From: a virus
DNA: 64,000 nt
IMG/VR virus record: IMGVR_UViG_3300023184_000029
Span: 1 to 64,000 of that record
Reading direction: 5' to 3' (one strand)
Every line of letters starts with the position of its first letter. The first letter of the stretch is position 1. Positions 26,989 to 51,730 of the stretch are shown here, piece by piece. A model generated the notes under the pieces. The model saw only the letters and a list, made by a program, of their open reading frames with translations, was not told the origin of the DNA and did not search any database. Made by a program: the position numbers and the translations under genes.

Positions 26989-27903
26989 TTAAAATATAGG
27001 ATAAATAATTCCATATCCTTCATATTTATGAATACCAGAGTATTTGGGATTTGCTAGTGGTTTGGATTTAGATTTAAATATATCTATATAATTTTTAGTA
27101 TTATTTAATTCATATTTCTTGATTTTTTTGTTATAACTCAATAATAGAGAAGCACAACCAACAGCAAATGGATTACTCATACTCGTTCCACTCATAGAGG
27201 CATATCCATTATTTGGTACACAACTAATAATATTATGTCCTGGCGCTAAAAAATCTAATGTATCCCCACTACATGTAAAACTAGTTCTATTTAGATTCTC
27301 GTCTATTGCTCCGATAGCTATAGTATTATTAAATTTTGCAGGATACATAACATCAGTAGCTTCCCCTGCATTACCAGCCGCACAAAAAATAATAGAACCT
27401 TTTGATACTGCATAGTTAATTGCATTTTCAATAGCTTTAGATGGGATTGGACTACCCAAAGACATAGTAATAATATCAGCTTTATTATCTGCTGACCAGA
27501 TAATAGCTTTGACTATATTATCTGAGCTACCAGACCCACTATTATCCAAAGCTTTGACTGGCATTATCTTTGATTCTGGAGCAACACCAACTATTCCTTT
27601 ACCATTATTTATTGCGGCTATGGTTCCGGCCACATGGGTTCCATGTCCATTAAAATCCATAGGATCTTTATTAATCTCAACAAAGTTTTTTCCTTGTATT
27701 ATATTGTCTTTAATATCAATATGATTAAAATCGCATCCAGTATCTATAACAGCTACCACCACACCCCTACCAGTTGAATAATTCCATTGATTCCTAATAT
27801 CAAATTTATTAATTTCCCAACCATAATGTTGTTCTTTATCAACCGACCCATAAATATCTTCTCTAATATATGGCAATAATTTAATATTATTTTTTCTTTT
27901 CAT
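26989..27903 (-). CDS. Subtilisin-like (S8) serine protease
   Basis: 304 residues with the full triad: Asp54 in VVVAVIDTGCDFNH, His87 in NGHGTHVAGTIAA, Ser241 in YASMSGTSMSNPFAVG, and the oxyanion Asn178 in CAAGNAG. No signal peptide is visible. There is a short N-terminal segment (about 45 residues) before the domain. It overlaps the trypsin-like gene by one base. It converges with the glycosyltransferase operon, with only one base between the coding ends. Confidence 0.9.
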   Translation of the reverse strand: MKRKNNIKLLPYIREDIYGSVDKEQHYGWEINKFDIRNQWNYSTGRGVVVAVIDTGCDFNHIDIKDNIIQGKNFVEINKDPMDFNGHGTHVAGTIAAINNGKGIVGVAPESKIMPVKALDNSGSGSSDNIVKAIIWSADNKADIITMSLGSPIPSKAIENAINYAVSKGSIIFCAAGNAGEATDVMYPAKFNNTIAIGAIDENLNRTSFTCSGDTLDFLAPGHNIISCVPNNGYASMSGTSMSNPFAVGCASLLLSYNKKIKKYELNNTKNYIDIFKSKSKPLANPKYSGIHKYEGYGIIYPIF

Positions 27904-28661
27904 TATTTCTCTACAATCATATTTGACTTTATCCAGTCGGTATATACACTAATTCTTGTATGTCCTGACTCGTCACTATAACTAGAATCTGTTTTTTTAT
28001 CTTCAGACATAATACACGAGTTAATACCAGCTAATTTATTTCCTATAAAAAGACCACCCCCACTATCTCCACTCCCTATAAGAAATTCTAAAGCGGTTAT
28101 TTTATCTTTTCTATAAGACGGAGTACAGACCAATAAATTTCTATCTATCTTATCAATTATATTAGATCCGGCTCTTCTCCTATTATCTGAAAATTTAATT
28201 CCAGTATTGAATGTTCCGGTTAAACCAAATCCACTGATAGTACAAGTTTTACCCTCTTCATCATTTTCATTATATAAAGAGGGATAGAATTCTAATTTTA
28301 TATCTTTTTTAAGGTATCCTAAAGCAATATCATCACGACCAAAACTAGATACTTCATAGCTATCATGTATAATAATTTTATCTATAAAGACTATTTCTTC
28401 ATTTTTATGAACATAGCAAATACTATATCCATTGACTACATGAGCAGCCGTTAAAATCCAATGAGGGTCTATAACAACGCAAGAAGCGCAAAAAAGACCC
28501 CCATCTGCATATTTTCCGCATAGCTTTAAAACAAATGGGAATTGGTTACCAAATTCGACATATTTTTCATCTGGAGTATCAGGATCTATAGTACCAGCTA
28601 TAGAAAGAGGGCAAGATAATAAATAAAAAAAAGCTATTATTAATACTAAAAGATATCTCAT
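27903..28661 (-). CDS. Secreted trypsin-like (S1) serine protease
   Basis: 252 residues. A clear signal peptide (RYLLVLIIAFFYLLSCPLSIAG) is followed by His74 in WILTAAHVVNG, Asp111 in RDDIALGYLKK, and Ser200 in IGSGDSGGGLF. The S1 primary-specificity residue lies in FLIGSGDSGG. This protein would leave the cytoplasm, unlike most phage gene products. Coupled to the subtilase gene, it may degrade envelope or competitor proteins, or be displayed by infected cells. Confidence 0.87.
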   Translation of the reverse strand: MRYLLVLIIAFFYLLSCPLSIAGTIDPDTPDEKYVEFGNQFPFVLKLCGKYADGGLFCASCVVIDPHWILTAAHVVNGYSICYVHKNEEIVFIDKIIIHDSYEVSSFGRDDIALGYLKKDIKLEFYPSLYNENDEEGKTCTISGFGLTGTFNTGIKFSDNRRRAGSNIIDKIDRNLLVCTPSYRKDKITALEFLIGSGDSGGGLFIGNKLAGINSCIMSEDKKTDSSYSDESGHTRISVYTDWIKSNMIVEK

Positions 28662-28693: not shown

Positions 28694-29002
28694 TTAGGGT
28701 CTTGATACTATCCTAGTACTATACACCTCAGTATCTTCTATAACAAATATATTCCAGCTTTTGAAGTCCATTAAATGACCAAATACTAGATGACATGGAT
28801 CAGCACACAAAGTCATAAGATTTGATGGATCAAGTTCTAGATCCGGATACTTATGTACCGGTTTTATATGATGTACTTCTAGTTTTTTATCTTTTCCACA
28901 AGCTGCACATTTAGGGTTATTTTCAAGATGTTTTTTTCTTACCGAATTCCATTTAGGAGATCTTGTTGCATATCTTATTTTTTTAAATAAATTGAAAATC
29001 AT
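28694..29002 (-). CDS. HNH endonuclease
   Basis: 102 residues with zinc cysteines in KCAACGKDKK (32, 35) and LCADPCH (66, 70), the HNH core LEVHHIKPVHKYPDLE (His44/45), Asn61 in DPSNLMTL, and a final His. McrA-like stand-alone HNH nuclease. Four-base overlap with the actin-like gene. It could be a homing or packaging-associated nuclease. Confidence 0.83.
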   Translation of the reverse strand: MIFNLFKKIRYATRSPKWNSVRKKHLENNPKCAACGKDKKLEVHHIKPVHKYPDLELDPSNLMTLCADPCHLVFGHLMDFKSWNIFVIEDTEVYSTRIVSRP

Positions 29003-30006
29003 AGCAATACTTTAGCTGCTATCAAACAACCTTTGGCTACTGAGTGCAAGGGGTCTGATGATTGCTTGACTACTTTGATGGGTAATGGAAAATTATTTTC
29101 TGTTAATTTTTTAGTAAAAATTTCTATATAACCATCTGCTTGTGATGTTCCACCGGCTACAACAATAGTTAATGGGTTTTTAAATTTGGGTAGAGACTTA
29201 TGATTTGTTAAAGCAAAAGATAATTGTTTAGTTGTATAGTCTATTAATCTTTCATAATATGAGGATACAGCAGCTAAAACAGGATTATCGCTATGTTCCC
29301 CGATTTTAAAACCACCTGCCTCTTTCTCTGCCTGAACAACACTATCCGGTTCTCCGGTCGCTACGGCGCTCATACGATCAATCCAGTCACCGCTTTTGGT
29401 TGTGCTAAAAACCACTGTAGGCTCACCGTTTAACATAACGCAAACATTCGTCATACCGGCTCCGCAGCTAATTCCGATACCTGTATAATCTTCATTTTCT
29501 AATTCAGCATAACATAAAGCTTCTGCTTCGTTAATAGATTTAGCATCATATCCTACTTCACTAAGTATGGTTTTAACTACATCTTCATGATATCCAACAT
29601 CAAAATCTTCATCCTCTTGATCTACTGGTTGAGCAGGTACACAAAATACTAGTTTTTCACCGGGCCTATCAGATTGTCCGACTACTTCTTGTAATATAAA
29701 AGCTAATATTCTTTTAGCATCTTTTTCTTTAGACGATACAACACCTTTATACATGGGCCTTTTTGCTGTATCATTTCTTTCTATAGCTTTTTCTATAGCG
29801 TCTTTGCCTAAAAGAATAAATGATCCATCTTCATCTTTAATAAAAACTTTACCAGCCAACCCTTTCTCAATCATTTTCGTTGCCACAGGAGTTGTTGGTT
29901 TAATAATATAAAAAGCATCCCTGAATTCTTTATATTCAATGCTATTATTGGTTTCCTTGGATAGAACAATAAAACTTGTACCAACATCTAAACCTACTGT
30001 TGACAT
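28999..30006 (-). CDS. Actin-like ATPase (ParM/MreB superfamily)
   Basis: 335 residues. Phosphate-1 motif STVGLDVGTSF (2-12), phosphate-2 GIGISCGAGMTNVCVML, and adenosine motif LTIVVAGGTSQADGY fit the actin/Hsp70 ATPase fold of actin size. Prokaryotic relatives polymerise to move plasmids, shape cells or organise membranes. The next gene upstream encodes a membrane-anchored protein, a possible filament anchor. In a large phage it may position replication sites or virions. Confidence 0.82.
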   Translation of the reverse strand: MSTVGLDVGTSFIVLSKETNNSIEYKEFRDAFYIIKPTTPVATKMIEKGLAGKVFIKDEDGSFILLGKDAIEKAIERNDTAKRPMYKGVVSSKEKDAKRILAFILQEVVGQSDRPGEKLVFCVPAQPVDQEDEDFDVGYHEDVVKTILSEVGYDAKSINEAEALCYAELENEDYTGIGISCGAGMTNVCVMLNGEPTVVFSTTKSGDWIDRMSAVATGEPDSVVQAEKEAGGFKIGEHSDNPVLAAVSSYYERLIDYTTKQLSFALTNHKSLPKFKNPLTIVVAGGTSQADGYIEIFTKKLTENNFPLPIKVVKQSSDPLHSVAKGCLIAAKVLL

Positions 30007-30009
30007 AAT

Positions 30010-30330
30010 TTATCCTTTCATATTTTTTAATTTATCTATAGAAGACGATATATTTTCTTGAGAGGTCTTGGTATCCCCCAGACTATTATATTTTCTTTCT
30101 AATCCAGAAGTTTTTATATCTCCTACATATTTTTTATTATCTATAGATATAGAATTAACTATATTTTTATTTTCATCAAAAAAGCTTTTTGGCCTATTAT
30201 TTAATACACCACTCTCATTTCGTTTTTGACCGATTAGATAGCCTATAAAAAACAAACACACCCCTATTACTAGGAGTGTGCTTGAAAATAATACTATAGT
30301 ATATATGTTAGTATTTAAATCTATTGTCAT
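30010..30330 (-). CDS. Single-pass membrane protein, putative filament partner
   Basis: 106 residues: one membrane span (about 11-33, TIVLFSSTLLVIGVCLFFIG) and a charged, probably disordered tail (about 37-106). It sits three bases upstream of the actin-like gene and overlaps ruvB by four. A tail that recruits the filament to the membrane is inferred from context only. Confidence 0.6.
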   Translation of the reverse strand: MTIDLNTNIYTIVLFSSTLLVIGVCLFFIGYLIGQKRNESGVLNNRPKSFFDENKNIVNSISIDNKKYVGDIKTSGLERKYNSLGDTKTSQENISSSIDKLKNMKG

Positions 30331-31229
30331 AATCTGTTCCCGATTGTTCTACCCTTTGGGGTTCTACTAACATAACCTTCTCTTACTAAGAAAGGCTCAA
30401 TACTATTTTCTATAGTATCAATAGCAATCCCGGTTAAAGAGGATATTGCCTTTAATCCCATAGGATTGCCCTTAGACTTTTGCAAAATCTCTAAATATAA
30501 CCTATCATACACATCTAGACCTCTATGATCAATACCCTGACTACTAAAAATTTCATTTATATCCGATATGTCTTTATCTTTATAGAAAGAAACATAGCTT
30601 TTATACCATTGTAGCCTTGCATTTAATATACGAGGAGTTCCCTTGCTTCTTTTAGCTATCTCTAATAGATGGTCATCTGATATTGTTAGTCCAAGCTTTC
30701 TAGAGTTCGACCCTGCTAGTTTAGCTAGTTCATCTGGAGAATAAAAAGATAGATGTTCTTTAATAATAAACCTATCATAGAAAGGCTGACTTAGACTTCC
30801 TCCGCTAGTAGTCGCACCCACTATACAAAAAAGAGGCAAATCTATTTTTTCTGGCTGATCTTCTACAGATATATTCAGAACAAAATCCTCCATTACTGGA
30901 TACAAAAATTCTTCTACAATTTTTGGAAGTCTATGAATCTCATCAATAAATAATACAGACCTTGGGGCTATGCCCATTAGATAAGGAATAATATTTTTAA
31001 CACTACGAATATTTGCAGCATTGGCTGTATATAGATTAACTCCAAGTTCGTTAGCAATAGAACTAGCGATAGTGGTCTTTCCTAAGCCTGGGGGGCCGTC
31101 TATTAAAACGTGAGGCATCACACTCTCAGAGTTTAAACAACCATGCACCAGAATTTGCAATCTAGTTACTACATCTGACTGACCAACGATATCATTTAAT
31201 CTAGAAGGACGCATAATATTATTTGACAT
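30327..31229 (-). CDS. ruvB: RuvB-like Holliday-junction branch-migration ATPase
   Basis: 300 residues, slightly shorter than cellular RuvB (about 335). Start MRPSRLNDIVGQSDVVTRLQ, Walker A IDGPPGLGKTT (44-53), Walker B VLFIDEIHRL, sensor GATTSGG followed by SLSQPFYDRF with the arginine finger, sensor 2 KGTPRILNARLQW, and the winged helix with ISSLTGIAIDTIENSIEPFL. It would drive branch migration in phage recombination. No full RuvA is nearby, but the adjacent gene carries a RuvA-domain-III-like tail. Confidence 0.9.
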   Translation of the reverse strand: MSNNIMRPSRLNDIVGQSDVVTRLQILVHGCLNSESVMPHVLIDGPPGLGKTTIASSIANELGVNLYTANAANIRSVKNIIPYLMGIAPRSVLFIDEIHRLPKIVEEFLYPVMEDFVLNISVEDQPEKIDLPLFCIVGATTSGGSLSQPFYDRFIIKEHLSFYSPDELAKLAGSNSRKLGLTISDDHLLEIAKRSKGTPRILNARLQWYKSYVSFYKDKDISDINEIFSSQGIDHRGLDVYDRLYLEILQKSKGNPMGLKAISSLTGIAIDTIENSIEPFLVREGYVSRTPKGRTIGNRL

Positions 31230-31231
31230 AA

Positions 31232-31624
31232 TTAATTCCTAATGGACTCCAAAGTTTGTTTGACCAAAATAACATAATCATCGACCCTATTTTCTTCATA
31301 GGATTTATTTACTAATTCAATAGCTTCTATCTTAGTAAATCCATATCCTATTAATAGTTTAGTAGCTTTTTCTAAAAGATCATTCGAGATTTTATGGTGT
31401 TCTTTAGGTGGCTCTATTGCTATTACTTTTTTAAGATAATTTATTTTAAAGTCTGTTACTCTTTTGACTTTAAAAACTTCTCCACAGTCGCAGACTACCT
31501 TAAAGTTAATAGTAGCAGCTTGTCTCCAAGATAACCAATGGTCTTGGTTACACTGAGAACATCTATATTTAAGATTAATCTCTTGATCAATCGGTTTCTG
31601 GAGTTTCTTTTTTGTTTTCATCAT
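31232..31624 (-). CDS. Zinc-ribbon protein with RuvA domain III-like C-terminus
   Basis: 130 residues. An N-terminal zinc ribbon (YRCSQCNQDHW with Cys22/25, and VCDCGEVFKV with Cys45/47) is followed by a linker. The final 52 residues (LLEKATKLLIGYGFTKIEAI, then LVNKSYEENRVDDYVILVKQ) are patterned like RuvA domain III, the small helical domain that binds RuvB. The DNA-binding domains I and II of RuvA are absent. Two bases separate it from ruvB. I infer a minimal RuvA substitute that couples RuvB to DNA or another protein through the ribbon. Confidence 0.62.
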   Translation of the reverse strand: MMKTKKKLQKPIDQEINLKYRCSQCNQDHWLSWRQAATINFKVVCDCGEVFKVKRVTDFKINYLKKVIAIEPPKEHHKISNDLLEKATKLLIGYGFTKIEAIELVNKSYEENRVDDYVILVKQTLESIRN

Positions 31625-32018
31625 CTTTTACCCAAAAAATAAAATCATTGTTTTCTTCATCAAAAGCACTTTCCAATAGACCGTTATTAACAAGCTTATT
31701 TAGTATATTGCTAATCATTCTATTATTGAACGACTCCAACATCTTCATTAAGATACTATCATTAATATAATATGATATAGTCTTGGTTTTTTTATTATTT
31801 TTTTTCTTCAAAAATTGTTTTGCAATATTTTCACATTCGGCAAAAGAAAGAGTAGAATCTAGTTCTTTTTCTTCGTCCATAGATAATGAAGATAACATTG
31901 CTGTTAAGCTATCATTTGAGTCCTCATTAACTTGACCAAAAAACTTAAACACCAATCTTCTAGCATGGTCTATAAATTCTGGCAAATTTCTTATAATATA
32001 CCATTCTTTGTTTTCCAT
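31587..32018 (-). CDS. Unknown protein with winged-helix-like C-terminus
   Basis: 143 residues. The C-terminal part (ISNILNKLVNNGLLESAFDE then NNDFIFWV) looks like the end of a winged helix. It closely parallels the end of the protein at 47615 (LAKLAAEGRVECAWDDKLNE, MVFWL), so the two are probably paralogues. Overlaps the zinc-ribbon gene by 38 bases. Possibly DNA-binding. Confidence 0.55.
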   Translation of the reverse strand: MENKEWYIIRNLPEFIDHARRLVFKFFGQVNEDSNDSLTAMLSSLSMDEEKELDSTLSFAECENIAKQFLKKKNNKKTKTISYYINDSILMKMLESFNNRMISNILNKLVNNGLLESAFDEENNDFIFWVKDDENKKETPETD

Positions 32019-32028
32019 ATGTATAATG

Positions 32029-32466
32029 TTAATTTAAAATATCAAACATTCCTTTGTAGTAATGTGGCTGTTTTAAAAAATACACAGAATGAGAGACTAT
32101 ATGATTAATATAATCGTGTTGAGTCTTGTCGTGTATAAAATATTTTTTCTTCCATACTTTAACATTATCATAGTTATTCCCCAAATACTGGAAGGAATTA
32201 CCCTTGCCAGTATTGGAGAAGTAACTATTCACAGGAATCGACTTGCTTGGAAAACCAGAGGCAGGCGGGATGCCGAAACCACCAACATACCATACATTTG
32301 GAGAACTTTCAACTATATCATTTAGAGCATCTTGTAACATTTTACCCCAAGAGTCCCATGCTTCTGGATCAAACTTAAAGTAATGTTTATACTTTTTCTC
32401 TAAATTGTCCTGACTATCATCATAGTCGTGACTATCATCATAGTTGTCATCATGTTCTTCGTTCAT
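32029..32466 (-). CDS. Unknown acidic-leader protein
   Basis: 145 residues from the ATG at 32466, chosen because AGGATAAAA precedes it. An acidic Asp/Tyr-rich leader (EEHDDNYDDSHDYDDSQDN) is followed by a compact domain with WYVGGFGIPPASGFP and KVWKKKYFIHDK. It begins inside the end of the primase-like gene. No family recognised. Confidence 0.5.
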   Translation of the reverse strand: MNEEHDDNYDDSHDYDDSQDNLEKKYKHYFKFDPEAWDSWGKMLQDALNDIVESSPNVWYVGGFGIPPASGFPSKSIPVNSYFSNTGKGNSFQYLGNNYDNVKVWKKKYFIHDKTQHDYINHIVSHSVYFLKQPHYYKGMFDILN

Positions 32467-32468
32467 TT

Positions 32469-33608
32469 TTATCCTATACAAAACTTATCACTAAGTTCAT
32501 TAGCTAGTTCTTTAGCAGCACCGGATAGGAATCTGTTGCCGCTAAAATATAGTGGGGTACTCACTTGATTTAGGAACTCCACCACCGTTTTTAAAAGTTT
32601 GGTCTGCTGACCGTCGAGACTTATATCCTCGTCACCAGTATCATTTGGAAGCGTCTGGAGAGCATCTGTATCGTCCTCAGTCGCAGGAGATACTGGCATG
32701 GGATCACCATAAGCTTTTTGAAAGACACTACCACTAGCATACCCATAAATCGGTTTGATATTTTCTGTGCTATTTGTATATGTCTCAGGACTCAAAGCTT
32801 TCATCTGATTCAGAATGTTTGTTGCAACATTAAACGATACTGGAACTCCAGTAACGTCAGACCTCTTATAAGCCTTAGCATATTCTTTAAACCATTCGTC
32901 GCTAGTCTTATTTGCAACAACATTAACAACAGCAGACACTCCATCAAGAGCCTCTTTAAGCTGTTCAATATTAACCCAATTACCAGTTGATCCCGATAAA
33001 ATACTGGTAAAATAAGGCTGCTTTCCTTCCCAACCCTTCCTCCACCAAGTATAAGGGATCCTATAAATCTGATTGATTTTAATAGCTCTGGCATCACCAC
33101 CAAAATGGTTTACAAGTTTCTTCTGGATACCATTCCAGTAAGTCTTGTGAGGATTCGTATTGTTTTGGTTTAGAATCCAATAGCATTGATAGCCATTACG
33201 AGTATCAACAACCCAGCTTGGCTTTACTGGAAAGTTATTGATCTGATCCAAGAATTCCTTTTTCTTCTGCATAACGATACTGGGCTTAAAATAACGACCT
33301 TGATCATCTCGACCAGCATCCATATCGACAAAACAAGCACGAATTCTACTAATAGCATACTGCTTACGTCCACCATTAACATAGAAGTAAGCATCAGCAC
33401 CTTGACTATCGTTGGCAATAGCAACAGTTGTAAGATGATCTGTATGATTCATACTACTGATCTTCTTACGAGGATCACCGTTGTAACAGAAAATCTGCTG
33501 ACCACCAAAAGAATCAAAAAACTTATTTCGCAAAGTAATTTGATCTCTTGTTCCAATTGCACTGTGATTCTTATCGAACGGATTAAAAGCCAAAGTATCG
33601 CTAAACAT
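32469..33608 (-). CDS. Primase-like protein (RepB/AEP type)
   Basis: 379 residues from the ATG at 33608, which has GAGGAAAAC ahead; the frame is open 24 codons further up without such a site. RACFVDMDAGRDDQGR (Asp pair at about 95-97), SWVVDTRNGYQCYWIL and GDARAIKINQIYRIPYTWWR match the archaeo-eukaryotic-type primase fold used by RepB-like replication proteins. The C-terminal 130 residues are low complexity then helical. It probably primes phage DNA synthesis, though no helicase domain is fused. Codons here end in C or G more often than in the structural genes. Confidence 0.65.
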   Translation of the reverse strand: MFSDTLAFNPFDKNHSAIGTRDQITLRNKFFDSFGGQQIFCYNGDPRKKISSMNHTDHLTTVAIANDSQGADAYFYVNGGRKQYAISRIRACFVDMDAGRDDQGRYFKPSIVMQKKKEFLDQINNFPVKPSWVVDTRNGYQCYWILNQNNTNPHKTYWNGIQKKLVNHFGGDARAIKINQIYRIPYTWWRKGWEGKQPYFTSILSGSTGNWVNIEQLKEALDGVSAVVNVVANKTSDEWFKEYAKAYKRSDVTGVPVSFNVATNILNQMKALSPETYTNSTENIKPIYGYASGSVFQKAYGDPMPVSPATEDDTDALQTLPNDTGDEDISLDGQQTKLLKTVVEFLNQVSTPLYFSGNRFLSGAAKELANELSDKFCIG

Positions 33609-33784: not shown

Positions 33785-34657
33785 TTAGTACTGATTATTC
33801 CAATCATCCTCATCAAGATCATCTTCTTCATATTCTTCCTCTTCCTCATCCTCATCAAACTGATCCCAATACCCTTCTTCATTGGTATAATCTTCGTCCT
33901 CATCCTCATAGTCATCCTGACTAAAATCAGCAGAATACAGGGGCTTTAGAAGTTCACCCTCATATTCTCCAACAACTTCATATCGGCATGTGCGAAGCTT
34001 TTCGCAGTTGCAATCGCTTGGAACACTCACAACATCTTTCGGATTAATCTTAACAATCACAATCCTATCACCAGATTCTAGGCTGCCATAACCAGCAACG
34101 TAGTTCAATGCACCAGCATGAAGCCCATCAGAACAGCCCCTAGCACGATTATCATCAACCTTTGCTCTTTGCATAGTGCAAATCTGACCAACGCGATTAT
34201 CAAAAACCCCACGATACTTATCCTTATAATCACTCCTTACTGCCTTATAAGCCAGAAAGTGACCATCCTCAGTAATTGGCAGATGCTCATGTTCAAGGAA
34301 ATCATAAAGTTCCTTCTGACTCTGCATACTAGGATTTTCCATGATATTATTCAGAAAATTAACGAGCGGTTGGAACGGTAGTCCCTTGCTCATAAACTCT
34401 AGAATTCTTTTGCTAATTGATCCATGAACAGGCTCACCTTCATAAGTGACCTGACCATTCTTGATCTCCACAAGACCATCACTAAAAGTAGCAACAGCTT
34501 TTTGAACATCAACAACCTCCAACAGTTCCTCTGCCGTAGCAGAGGGAAGTTTTTCCAGAATCAACTTATAGTTGATATGATCCGGCAACACCTGATAACT
34601 CTGGTTATTTAGAACCAGTGTCAAATTACCATCCACAAACATAAACGGAACAGCCAT
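33785..34657 (-). CDS. rIIB: rIIB-like protein
   Basis: 290 residues. The order of motifs matches phage T4 rIIB relatives: an opening with NLTLVLNNQSYQVL, GQVTYEGEPVHGSISKRILE, LYDFLEHEHLPITEDGHFLA then YKAV, CSDGLHAGALNYVAGYGS, and IVIVKINPKDVVSVPSDCNC. A long Asp/Glu tail (about 245-290) is an addition. In T4, rIIA and rIIB protect infected cells from a prophage-encoded exclusion system. The rIIA-like gene is directly upstream, and each has its own promoter. Confidence 0.82.
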   Translation of the reverse strand: MAVPFMFVDGNLTLVLNNQSYQVLPDHINYKLILEKLPSATAEELLEVVDVQKAVATFSDGLVEIKNGQVTYEGEPVHGSISKRILEFMSKGLPFQPLVNFLNNIMENPSMQSQKELYDFLEHEHLPITEDGHFLAYKAVRSDYKDKYRGVFDNRVGQICTMQRAKVDDNRARGCSDGLHAGALNYVAGYGSLESGDRIVIVKINPKDVVSVPSDCNCEKLRTCRYEVVGEYEGELLKPLYSADFSQDDYEDEDEDYTNEEGYWDQFDEDEEEEEYEEDDLDEDDWNNQY

Positions 34658-34702
34658 AATCCAACTCCTAAAAATTAAAGTTTCGATACCTGTGATACTG
34701 TC

Positions 34703-34730
34703 ATTTTACACTAATCGGCAAGCTTGTCAA
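34703..34730 (-). promoter_or_regulatory. Promoter for rIIB
   Basis: TTGACA (34725-34730), 16 bases containing GCCGAT, TAAAAT (34703-34708), 46 bases upstream of the rIIB start. Member of the CCGAT-spacer promoter set. Confidence 0.8.
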
Positions 34731-34751
34731 GGGGTCTTGAACAATTTCTGA

Positions 34752-37439
34752 CTACTTGATCAAACTACTCAACTGAATCTTTAATAGGTCAATATTCTCC
34801 TGACTCATCTGCTGGATCCAATCCTTACCAGAATTTCCATAGTATGAGTGACGATCCTCAAGAATAGGATTCTGACTAGGCTTTAGGTCTGTCAAATTAC
34901 CAGATACTTGATGATTCCCCATAATAAGCTTTAGCATAGGATTCTTATCTATCTCAGTTTTGATCTGCTCCCTAATTTCAGAGATTTTCCATCTTTTAAG
35001 ATCCTCAGTAGAAGTCCCACGAATAATCTTGAGATAACCCTCTGCTTTTGTACTATTATCTCCAGAGTACAAAGAGTTGGAGATCATGCGAGTCAAGGTA
35101 TTGTAGGCCAAATTAGCATTACGAATCTCCTTACCGTCAACATCTTCAATGCCAATTTCTTTCATAAGCTTAGAGATATGAGATAGATATTCTGTTTGCT
35201 TAAACTTACTAATATTAAAAGGACTCATATGAACAGTATTAGCAAAGAACTCTGTTAGCATAGTCTTATTCAAACAATCTACAAGAGTCTTGTTGTTAAT
35301 AAACTTATCATAATCTAGACCAAAGATATTCAGAATATGAAACATAAACTGCTTATCTGTTGTTCCATGCCTATTATATGCGTATCCTCCAGAGGTCTTC
35401 TCCTCTGTTGCATAGTCCTTCTTACAATATTCAACAAGCTTGTTGATAGAAGAAAGATTCTTAAAATGTTTTTCTGCTACAACTTTAAGCTGTCTCTTCA
35501 AAAAGTCGTTGAAGTTAACAAGATTGTATCCGTCTTTCTCAAGCTTTTTAGCAAAAGCTGTTTTGATAGCATAAACCTTACTATCTCCAACCAAGTCCTT
35601 GACTATACTCTTGAGCGTTTCATCTCTAAGAGTAATACCAATATCATTAATCTGTGGATAGCCAGACGCAGGTTCAGTCTTATAGCGAAGCATAGGAACA
35701 TACACGATCTCATCTTGTTCCAGAAAATCTTCCAGTTGTTCTTCTGAAAGAATTCTCAGACAAGTAGCGTCGTTGTAAGGATTGGTAATCTGCTTGCTAT
35801 CCTTATCATAACCATGAATAAAGAATACGTCTTGATCGCTAACGCTACCATTAGAATTTCTATTGTAAGACTTTCTTGGTCCAGAACTTTGTGTCAGATG
35901 TTTGTAGTCTGAAACCTTGAGTAGATTTTCAGCCCCAACATCTTCAATCAGTTGATCAAAACCTTCTCCGCTTTTTGTATGATCCTTAGTATCAATCAAG
36001 AGGTATGCAAAGCAATCATTTGTATTACAATATTTTGTAATAATTTTCTTAGCAGTCTCTTCACCCTTAACGTCACACACAAAGAAACTCATCTGACCTT
36101 TCTTTTTCTGGTTATTCCAATAACTATAACCTTTACCAGTAAGAGTTTCGTGATGAATCTTATCAGTCAGAGCAACCATGCGACGAGAACGAAACCCAGC
36201 AGTCTTGTAATTAAAAACATACAGACTCTTGCCAGCCGGAATTTTATATTCCAGATCGTTACCAGAATTGATGGGATGATCTTTGCCCTTGGGATCGGTC
36301 CAAGATGCACCAACTCCCCATCCTCCAGCCAGTTCGTTCATGGTATAGTATGAAGTAATGGCTTCTACTTTAGTTTTAGAAGTTTGAATTTTCTTGGAGA
36401 ATTCTTCCTTCATCTCAATATAAATTTCTTGAGTCTTTTTACGAAGGGTCTTGATCACATCTTTAGTATACTGCAATCCTTCCCGGCTTACGTCCATCTC
36501 AAGTTGACCGATATTAAAATCCAACTCAAGATAAAGACCAGAGTTGATAATCTCACTAACAAAACTCTTCCAACTATCAATATCTGCTTTTTGGAAAGCT
36601 CTATTCCACTTCTGAATATGATCTGGCATCTCTTCCTTTTCTTGACCCACAATCTGTGCTGTCTGAACAGGATACGCAATATTGCCCATGATAGCTACAA
36701 CACCACTATCAATACGATGATAACTATTAGGATAGTATTGAGTATCATTATTCAGTCGGCAAACTCTCCACCCGTCACCACTAATAACGATGCTAGTATT
36801 ACTATACTTATGATCTTGTAAACCACTCCCGATACCACCCTCAATAATAGGTTTCATACGGAAATAATGGAAGATTCTCTTAGCCTTATCTGTAAATTCT
36901 TGGAAGTCATGCTGCTTAACAGCAAAACTAATCTCAAGACCATTAGGCTCAGATGTATTAGAAGTATTAAAAAGATTGAGGGTAGGAACACCGCTCTCAT
37001 CAATCGCCGCAATATAGGTATATTTCTTGCCATTATAATAAGATGCGGTCGTAAAACTCTTGGTATAAGCAAACGGACTCTTAGACCCTAGACCAAGACA
37101 ACCCACAAAATCATTGCTATCATTCTTGTTGGACGCTCCATAGGTTGTATACAAGTCCTCCATATCATGCTGACTAAGACCAGTACCGTAATCTCTAACC
37201 ATAAAAGTTGGATTAGCAGCGGTGGGCAGAGTTACCTTAAAAGGATTCTTATTACCAGCAGAAATGTGGCTATCATAAGCATTAGTTGAAAGCTCACGAA
37301 TTGCAGCCATAACCTTGTCAGAATAAAGAGAATCTGAAAGGATTTTAAACATTTTGCTTGTTTGAGCAATATTAAACTGATTCTTGCTCGTAACACCAAC
37401 GCTGTGAGTCTCAATCGTCCTATCTGCCAACTTCATCAT
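34752..37439 (-). CDS. rIIA: rIIA-like GHKL ATPase
   Basis: 895 residues, longer than T4 rIIA (725). The N-terminal GHKL (Hsp90/gyrase-type) ATP site is clear: IRELSTNAYDSHISAG (N box, 47-62), FMVRDYGTGLSQHDME (G1), and GCLGLGSKSPFAYTKSF (G2). The long C-terminal region (about 400-895) is unassigned. GGAG lies four bases before the first of two adjacent ATGs. With rIIB it likely forms a membrane-associated anti-exclusion pair. Confidence 0.85.
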   Translation of the reverse strand: MMKLADRTIETHSVGVTSKNQFNIAQTSKMFKILSDSLYSDKVMAAIRELSTNAYDSHISAGNKNPFKVTLPTAANPTFMVRDYGTGLSQHDMEDLYTTYGASNKNDSNDFVGCLGLGSKSPFAYTKSFTTASYYNGKKYTYIAAIDESGVPTLNLFNTSNTSEPNGLEISFAVKQHDFQEFTDKAKRIFHYFRMKPIIEGGIGSGLQDHKYSNTSIVISGDGWRVCRLNNDTQYYPNSYHRIDSGVVAIMGNIAYPVQTAQIVGQEKEEMPDHIQKWNRAFQKADIDSWKSFVSEIINSGLYLELDFNIGQLEMDVSREGLQYTKDVIKTLRKKTQEIYIEMKEEFSKKIQTSKTKVEAITSYYTMNELAGGWGVGASWTDPKGKDHPINSGNDLEYKIPAGKSLYVFNYKTAGFRSRRMVALTDKIHHETLTGKGYSYWNNQKKKGQMSFFVCDVKGEETAKKIITKYCNTNDCFAYLLIDTKDHTKSGEGFDQLIEDVGAENLLKVSDYKHLTQSSGPRKSYNRNSNGSVSDQDVFFIHGYDKDSKQITNPYNDATCLRILSEEQLEDFLEQDEIVYVPMLRYKTEPASGYPQINDIGITLRDETLKSIVKDLVGDSKVYAIKTAFAKKLEKDGYNLVNFNDFLKRQLKVVAEKHFKNLSSINKLVEYCKKDYATEEKTSGGYAYNRHGTTDKQFMFHILNIFGLDYDKFINNKTLVDCLNKTMLTEFFANTVHMSPFNISKFKQTEYLSHISKLMKEIGIEDVDGKEIRNANLAYNTLTRMISNSLYSGDNSTKAEGYLKIIRGTSTEDLKRWKISEIREQIKTEIDKNPMLKLIMGNHQVSGNLTDLKPSQNPILEDRHSYYGNSGKDWIQQMSQENIDLLKIQLSSLIK

Positions 37440-46166: not shown

Positions 46167-46378
46167 GTATCGTCTAATCTTTGCCGTTTCTTGAACACAA
46201 TCGCCATATATTGTACCAGATCGCTTCCAGAAGTTTGAAACCAACAAGGGAATATAGCATGAACTATTAGACATAAACCAGCAACCAAACAAACAAATCC
46301 ATAGAAAATAGCAAATTTTAAATGCTGATAATAAGTCATATGATTTTCTATTAGATGTTGTTTAATTCTGTTTTTCAT
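46163..46378 (-). CDS. Small membrane protein (DUF6356-like)
   Basis: 71 residues with a span at about 22-44 (FAIFYGFVCLVAGLCLIVHA) and MTYYQHLKFA before it, IFPCWFQTSGSD after. This is the pattern I know as DUF6356, a common phage and bacterial membrane protein of unknown role. Overlaps endonuclease VII by four bases. Confidence 0.62.
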   Translation of the reverse strand: MKNRIKQHLIENHMTYYQHLKFAIFYGFVCLVAGLCLIVHAIFPCWFQTSGSDLVQYMAIVFKKRQRLDDT

Positions 46379-46719
46379 TTATCCTTGGACCTTGAAAGAA
46401 AATAGTTCATAGCATTAACAATTCCTTGTAAATTATCTCCTAATTTTCCTATACCGGTATTACAACGATCACAGACCCAACCCCTAAAACTATCATTACC
46501 ATGATCGTGATCTAATACCCATTTAATAGGTATTTTTTTACAACACTCACAAAACTCTGGTCTAGGTGGTGCTATTTTATGAAGACCACTTCTTACCTTG
46601 GAGTGTTTCTTTACGCACTTTTTACATCTAGTATCCAGATTATCTTTGTACATACTGTGTTTAGGGAAACTTCCCTTGTTTTTTCTTTTGCCACAATATG
46701 TACAAATTTTTCTACTCAT
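46375..46719 (-). CDS. Recombination endonuclease VII-like (T4 gp49)
   Basis: 114 residues. A first zinc pair (ICTYCG, CKKC) precedes the core CECCKKIPIKWVLDHDHGND with the HNH-type DHDH (70-73), then FRGWVCDRCNTGIGKLGDN and MNYFL. In T4 this enzyme resolves branched DNA before packaging. Together with the RuvB-like protein it gives a phage branch-processing set. Confidence 0.85.
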   Translation of the reverse strand: MSRKICTYCGKRKNKGSFPKHSMYKDNLDTRCKKCVKKHSKVRSGLHKIAPPRPEFCECCKKIPIKWVLDHDHGNDSFRGWVCDRCNTGIGKLGDNLQGIVNAMNYFLSRSKDK

Positions 46720-50818: not shown

Positions 50819-51730
50819 TTAAGAAAGTGTAGTTAAAAGTTCATTATATTCTGCAATTGCTAAATCCTTAGCTTTTAATTCCATGTCCACATCAAATTCT
50901 AAACCATAGTTATCAAAAGTATTTTGAGGATAATCAGCATGAGCGCGAGGATTATTACCTACCCTACTTTCACTATAATGAAATAGGCATCTGGTTTGCC
51001 AAGTATCATAACACATATTAATCGCTTCGCGTTCTGTGAGATTATTAGGATGACACTTATGATGCAAGTAATCAAAACAGATTGGAATACGAGTTATTGG
51101 ATGAAAAATATCCACTAATTCTTTAACACTCCAGCAGTTTAGTTTATCGTCATTTTCAATGGTTAGTCTAGCTTGACAATTTTCATCTAGTTTTTTAAAG
51201 TTTGCATAAAATCTATGAGAAATTTCTTCTCTTGTACCATTATTGTTATGTACATGAAGATTCATGGGCGATCTAGTATCTGCTGGAAGTCCAATTCTGT
51301 CAAAGAAACTGCTGTAGAAGTTGAGTTCTGTGATTGTTTTCTCAACAACTTTTTCGTTGAGGCTTGACAAACTGTTAAATTCACTAGGATGAGCAGAAAC
51401 ACGAACATTAGTAGAGGAAATACTCTGTGCAATATTATCAAACTCATCTTGAATAGAGTCATAGTTAGGTAAATCTTCTAGATTAACATTTGCTGCGTCA
51501 TAAGTAATTAAAGGGAAAATATCACTACTAACACGATAAACATAATTATTTTCCGCACAAAACTGTATGGTTTTATCTGTAACCATTAGATTATTTTGAA
51601 TTCTTGATCCAAGAATTTCCAATGCTTCTTCTCTAGGCAAAGAATTAAATCTTTTGAAAGTCATGGTTTGATGACCAAAACCCTGCTCTTTGAGTTTAAG
51701 AGAAATGCAGCAAAGACCGAACCTATTCAT
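50819..51730 (-). CDS. uvsE: UV damage endonuclease (UvdE/UvsE)
   Basis: 303 residues, the family size. RFGLCCISLKLKEQGFG start, NNYVYRVSSDIFPLITYDAA, NVRVSAHPSEFNSLSS, SPMNLHVHNNNGTR, ARLTIENDDKLNCWSVKELV and PICFDYLHHKCHPN provide the TIM-barrel metal residues. The enzyme nicks DNA beside UV photoproducts, useful to a phage in sunlit water. Its own promoter lies at 51750-51777. Confidence 0.9.
   Translation of the reverse strand: MNRFGLCCISLKLKEQGFGHQTMTFKRFNSLPREEALEILGSRIQNNLMVTDKTIQFCAENNYVYRVSSDIFPLITYDAANVNLEDLPNYDSIQDEFDNIAQSISSTNVRVSAHPSEFNSLSSLNEKVVEKTITELNFYSSFFDRIGLPADTRSPMNLHVHNNNGTREEISHRFYANFKKLDENCQARLTIENDDKLNCWSVKELVDIFHPITRIPICFDYLHHKCHPNNLTEREAINMCYDTWQTRCLFHYSESRVGNNPRAHADYPQNTFDNYGLEFDVDMELKAKDLAIAEYNELLTTLS

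Follow-up and report, generated by a model that had tools for sequence, protein, structure and literature searches.

A phage RuvB encoded next to a small protein predicted to join a zinc ribbon to RuvA domain III

The window analyzed in this study, corresponding to the initial 64 kb of a virus record 186,542 bp long (IMG/VR IMGVR_UViG_3300023184_000029), encodes a RuvB-family AAA+ motor of 300 amino acids (aa) and a protein of 130 aa (31232..31624, minus strand), hereafter called the adaptor. The adaptor was predicted to consist of a zinc ribbon and RuvA domain III by family alignment, profile search, an AlphaFold model, and Foldseek. We consider it probable that this protein serves the phage's own RuvB, such that domain III docks on the motor and the zinc ribbon directs the ring, most likely to branched or single-stranded phage DNA. 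Both open reading frames were located where the initial annotation of this DNA had placed them, adjoining on the minus strand (30327-31229 for RuvB and 31232-31624 for the adaptor). The RuvB start lies 2 nucleotides (nt) past the adaptor stop, and the adaptor start overlaps the upstream gene (31587-32018), encoding a winged-helix-like protein, by 38 nt.

The protein encoded at 30327..31229 is, judging from its Pfam domains, motifs, and relatives in IMG/VR, a genuine RuvB. All of its Pfam matches were above the cut-offs (RuvB_N, PF05496, 1.3e-44; AAA_lid_4, PF17864, 5.3e-09; RuvB_C, PF05491, 2.4e-18). Alignment to E. coli RuvB indicated that Walker A, Walker B, the equivalent of R174, and the C-terminal RTPxGR hairpin were kept, and that R172 of the E. 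coli protein corresponds to an invariant tyrosine in the phage RuvB. Since the domains are complete and the motifs kept, the phage RuvB should be an active motor able to bind DNA. The same alignment placed the presensor-1 beta-hairpin, the docking site for RuvA domain III, at RuvB residues 118-131 (30837..30878, minus strand), with I120 and V122 at E. coli positions 137 and 139. In E. coli RuvB, this hairpin (L135-L152) binds RuvA (PMC2628435; PMC9477746).

In bacterial RuvA, domain III is both the anchor for RuvB and a nucleotide exchange factor acting on the presensor-1 hairpin (PMC9477746), and domains I-II hold the junction (PMC9477746; PMC10272136). The initial annotation had proposed a RuvB-binding-like domain in the 130-aa protein and had named beforehand a profile comparison of its C-terminal residues with RuvA domain III as a check. 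The domain, adaptor residues 79-130 (31235..31390, minus strand), indeed matched RuvA domain III by profile and by fold. When a full-length family profile was searched against 177,635 distinct PDB sequences, the top match was T. thermophilus RuvA domain III (1ixs_A, E 0.0023), and RuvA accounted for 7 of the 12 listed matches; for comparison, a query with T. thermophilus domain III itself recovers the domain III of other RuvA proteins with E values no better than about 0.001. RuvA entries were again on top with a narrower profile of 58 columns, at E values of only 0.07-0.15. Foldseek comparison of the adaptor model with the PDB also ranked 1ixs_A, which is RuvA domain III from a crystal with RuvB, first (probability 0.99, root-mean-square deviation 1.8 over 48 columns, target TM 0.76), with an E value (0.37) of the size to be anticipated for a domain of 50 residues; RuvA 1c7y came second. 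The single 130-aa sequence gave no significant match to Pfam or PHROG. Among the adaptor members, Pfam RuvA_C was the commonest family (5 of 24, best E 0.0077), and a directed hhalign comparison gave 94.5% (control, 0.5%). When RuvA_C was scanned against all six frames of 12 related phage records, three matches were obtained, below the curated cut-off and all inside the adaptor gene; the scan of the window's own 186-kb record gave none. Furthermore, L167 and L170 of E. coli RuvA, mutation of which abolishes RuvB activity in vivo (PMC2628435), align with adaptor residues L91 and Y94, both of which show a conservation of 90% or more among the members. Because four tests that do not presuppose the answer (PDB profile, Foldseek, Pfam RuvA_C, and the six-frame scans) agree, the C-terminal domain is identified, from profiles and the predicted fold, as RuvA domain III.

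Three-helix bundles are small and common, and the RuvA_C scores of the single sequence and of single records are below the curated cut-off, so that the domain might be merely UBA-like and not bind RuvB, the pairing of the genes having some other cause such as shared regulation. This explanation is very unlikely: the unbiased PDB searches, by sequence and by fold, ranked RuvA domain III first rather than UBA, CUE, or other UBA-like domains, the adaptor gene strictly adjoins RuvB, and the docking hairpin of RuvB is altered where the adaptor is missing, as described below.

The N-terminal part of the adaptor (residues 10-61; 31442..31597, minus strand) was recognized by its conserved cysteines and by four strands in the model. 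Two cysteine pairs were present in all 45 distinct adaptor proteins, and C22, C25, C45, C47, K10, P11, W30, G95, and E100 were invariant across 24 aligned proteins, in which a conserved YGF..EA motif was also seen. The AlphaFold2 model (mean predicted local distance difference test score (pLDDT) 87.6) contained a zinc-ribbon-like fold at residues 17-52, with strands at 17-21, 28-32, 42-44, and 50-52, followed by helices at 81-93, 98-111, and 117-129. On this alignment and model, the N-terminal part is a four-cysteine zinc ribbon with predicted metal binding. The proposal that a zinc ribbon replaces the DNA-binding part of RuvA was thus borne out, in that the cysteine pairs and the model indicate that domains I-II have been supplanted. 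RuvA_N (PF01330), the OB-fold domain I that contributes to the junction-binding face of RuvA, was absent from the 186-kb record and from 12 related records. The adaptor is not a RuvA, because the defining domain I of RuvA is absent, though it carries RuvA domain III. The anchor and exchange role of domain III appears to have been kept, and the junction-holding role to have been replaced by a mostly basic zinc ribbon.

Relatives of the phage RuvB were found at 71 IMG/VR loci, and IMG/VR searches starting from the adaptor alone gave further loci, in which RuvB lay directly downstream in all save two contig ends. In total, the adaptor-RuvB pair was present in 92 fetched loci (some contigs were fetched twice) from uncultured phage contigs, with 45 distinct adaptor sequences, and the commonest spacing was an 8-nt overlap. 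The pairing is not due to chance, because 45 distinct versions recur and the adaptor-seeded searches always reach RuvB downstream. No adaptor apart from RuvB was seen among the fetched loci. Neither the adaptor nor the winged-helix protein was found in isolate phages, in which all RuvB matches were less than 60% identical and mostly from unannotated records. The adaptor was also absent from bacterial and archaeal genomes in a short-pattern search, which reaches close relatives only, and the RuvB search of these genomes gave three weak matches without a hint of the host. Searching for distant loci with the alignment of the entire family had no yield, the conserved stretches of 7-10 residues being too few.

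At 14 loci, comprising 9 distinct RuvBs, the winged-helix gene stands directly before RuvB without the adaptor. No adaptor was found elsewhere in the 13 records of such phages that were searched, one of which was 153 kb in length, and the adaptor-less RuvBs are scattered on the RuvB tree, with 4-5 changes. Loss of the adaptor can leave RuvB intact, so that in some phages RuvB must also serve a purpose for which the adaptor is not required, perhaps together with the winged-helix protein. Among the 90 RuvB columns whose residues are hydrophobic in 95% or more of the adaptor-bearing phages, only 5 change in any of five adaptor-less lineages. The most-changed columns correspond to E. coli positions 139 (three of the five lineages) and 137 (two of the five), which together cover four of the five lineages and both lie in the presensor-1 hairpin. 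In 1000 random draws of five lineages from 32 groups, the two most-changed columns fell in the hairpin twice and the hairpin total was matched once; such draws, however, account only incompletely for phylogeny, and the hairpin pattern was first spotted by eye. A column scan by residues unseen in adaptor-bearing phages, instead of by hydrophobicity, did not single out the hairpin. Because most adaptor-less lineages lose hydrophobic residues from the hairpin, there is good but not final sequence evidence for docking of the adaptor onto the RuvB of the same phage.

Several observations weigh against this interpretation. A phylogenetically independent test could use only 4 pairs (3 to 0, p 0.25). 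Loci L004 and L005 retain a hydrophobic hairpin without the adaptor, and L118 (2486-2902) is the sole adaptor-bearing phage with a threonine in the hairpin, at the equivalent of E. coli position 139. The hairpin, while present in the window RuvB, is 4 residues shorter than that of E. coli, likewise in nearly all members. The adaptor is dispensable, given that it is missing from several related phages in which RuvB and the winged-helix gene are retained, which speaks against an essential loader. Finally, the net charge of the adaptor N-terminal part, which is mostly basic (median +8), varies widely, from -2 to +18.

In the mechanism that we propose, domain III of the adaptor would bind the phage RuvB at the presensor-1 hairpin, in the manner of RuvA, and the docked adaptor would tether the RuvB hexamer and tune its nucleotide cycle. 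The mostly basic zinc ribbon would stand in for the Holliday-junction-binding domains of RuvA and direct the ring elsewhere, most likely to phage DNA that is branched or single-stranded during RecA-dependent recombination and replication. That the target is DNA, onto which the adaptor loads the motor, is inferred as a first guess. The genes of the 186-kb record provide the setting: RecA is encoded at the contig end, together with DnaB, a Toprim primase, SSB, and DNA ligase elsewhere in the record. DNA polymerase III alpha is encoded in two open reading frames (genome 175857-180215; L081:1857-3482 and L081:4335-6215), one piece with PHP and palm and the other with finger, HHH, and OB, and a DnaQ-like exonuclease gene lies between them. 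RuvC (PF02075) and RusA were not found in the record, which may be a fragment. An endonuclease-VII-like protein (46375-46719, minus strand; PF02945, 1.5e-10) is a candidate junction resolvase. A UvdE-type UV damage endonuclease is encoded at 50819-51730 (minus strand; PF03851, 4.6e-41).

The main rival to a DNA target is a protein target, in which the adaptor would bind RuvB through domain III while the zinc ribbon grips the replisome, the sliding clamp, RNA polymerase, or the winged-helix neighbor, thereby recruiting RuvB to another machine. Protein binding is common among zinc ribbons, genes for a PolIII-type replisome are present in the phage itself, and the winged-helix and 150-aa proteins are constant neighbors of the pair. 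On the other hand, the N-terminal part is mostly basic, and PHROG, Pfam, fold, and BFVD searches connected the zinc ribbon with neither RNA polymerase nor terminase; matches of the adaptor model to RbpA in Foldseek were very weak. We therefore regard a protein target as rather unlikely. Even less credit can be given to the adaptor as a decoy that caps host RuvB or blocks host RuvA and so keeps host RuvAB off the phage DNA. Competition with RuvA would be the expected effect of a domain III that stands alone and lacks the junction-binding domains, whereas the adaptor is always encoded directly beside the phage RuvB and never alone, and whether it is present co-varies with the state of the hairpin in that RuvB, which makes a decoy most improbable.

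The pair belongs to a block with the conserved order rIIA, rIIB, (primase-like), 150-aa protein, winged-helix protein, [adaptor], and RuvB. The winged-helix-like protein (143 aa; 31587..32018, minus strand) was present in 94 of 95 RuvB-holding loci and is likely part of the module; its AlphaFold2 model had a pLDDT of 80.9, and its MarR/SarA-like fold matches were weak (best E 0.078) and gave no indication of its function. The 150-aa protein (32029..32481, minus strand), in 92 of the 95 loci, is a possible part of the module and had no match in Pfam. Its conserved C-terminal tail, like QPxYYKGMFDILN, resembles by eye a clamp-binding peptide. The rIIB-like and rIIA-like genes (33785-37439, minus strand) are in the T4 order and, in related loci, are found a short distance upstream of the module. 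Close downstream of RuvB, a Volactin-family actin-like protein is encoded at 28999-30006 (minus strand; PF25216, E 2.4e-62), and a 106-aa protein with an apparent N-terminal membrane segment (30010-30330) travels with the Volactin-family gene in many related loci. Two adjacent genes on the minus strand appear by eye to encode serine proteases of the subtilisin type (26989-27903) and the trypsin type (27903-28661), and homologues of these two genes (26989-28661) are near RuvB in many related loci.

No prior description of a RuvB paired with a zinc-ribbon/RuvA-III protein was found in the open-licence literature, consistent with the initial annotation. The phage pair resembles bacterial RuvAB in that a motif-intact RuvB is paired with a protein bearing RuvA domain III. 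It differs in that the phage record has no match to RuvA domain I, domains I-II being replaced by a zinc ribbon, and in the RuvB hairpin shorter by 4 residues, the invariant tyrosine in place of E. coli R172, and an adaptor that some phages dispense with. The recombination systems of jumbo phages, as surveyed in 224 phages (PMC7824862), likewise feature RecA and an endonuclease-VII-like protein alongside phage-encoded processing of Holliday junctions; by comparison, the phage of this analysis has RuvB, and RuvC was not found in its record. Bacillus phage Kirov, which has DnaB, DnaG, and PolIII alpha, encodes a protein annotated with a RuvA C-terminal domain, a likeness to the present phage in replisome genes and annotated domain, whereas its published gene list includes RuvC and not RuvB (PMC10454425).

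In the understanding held so far, RuvA is what brings the RuvB motor to Holliday junctions. A natural RuvB with a partner that retains just the coupling domain separates the tethering and switching of the motor from the recognition of the junction. Tentatively, domain III may be a portable coupling module and RuvB may not be tied to RuvA or to Holliday junctions, being used as a general double-stranded DNA pump on another substrate or machine, with the docking hairpin decaying on loss of the adaptor and the motor being kept. The pair makes it possible to test directly whether domain III by itself suffices as an anchor and nucleotide-exchange factor and what further substrates a RuvB ring may accept, and it would represent, in a set of uncultured phages, a type of module for recombination or replication that has not been reported.
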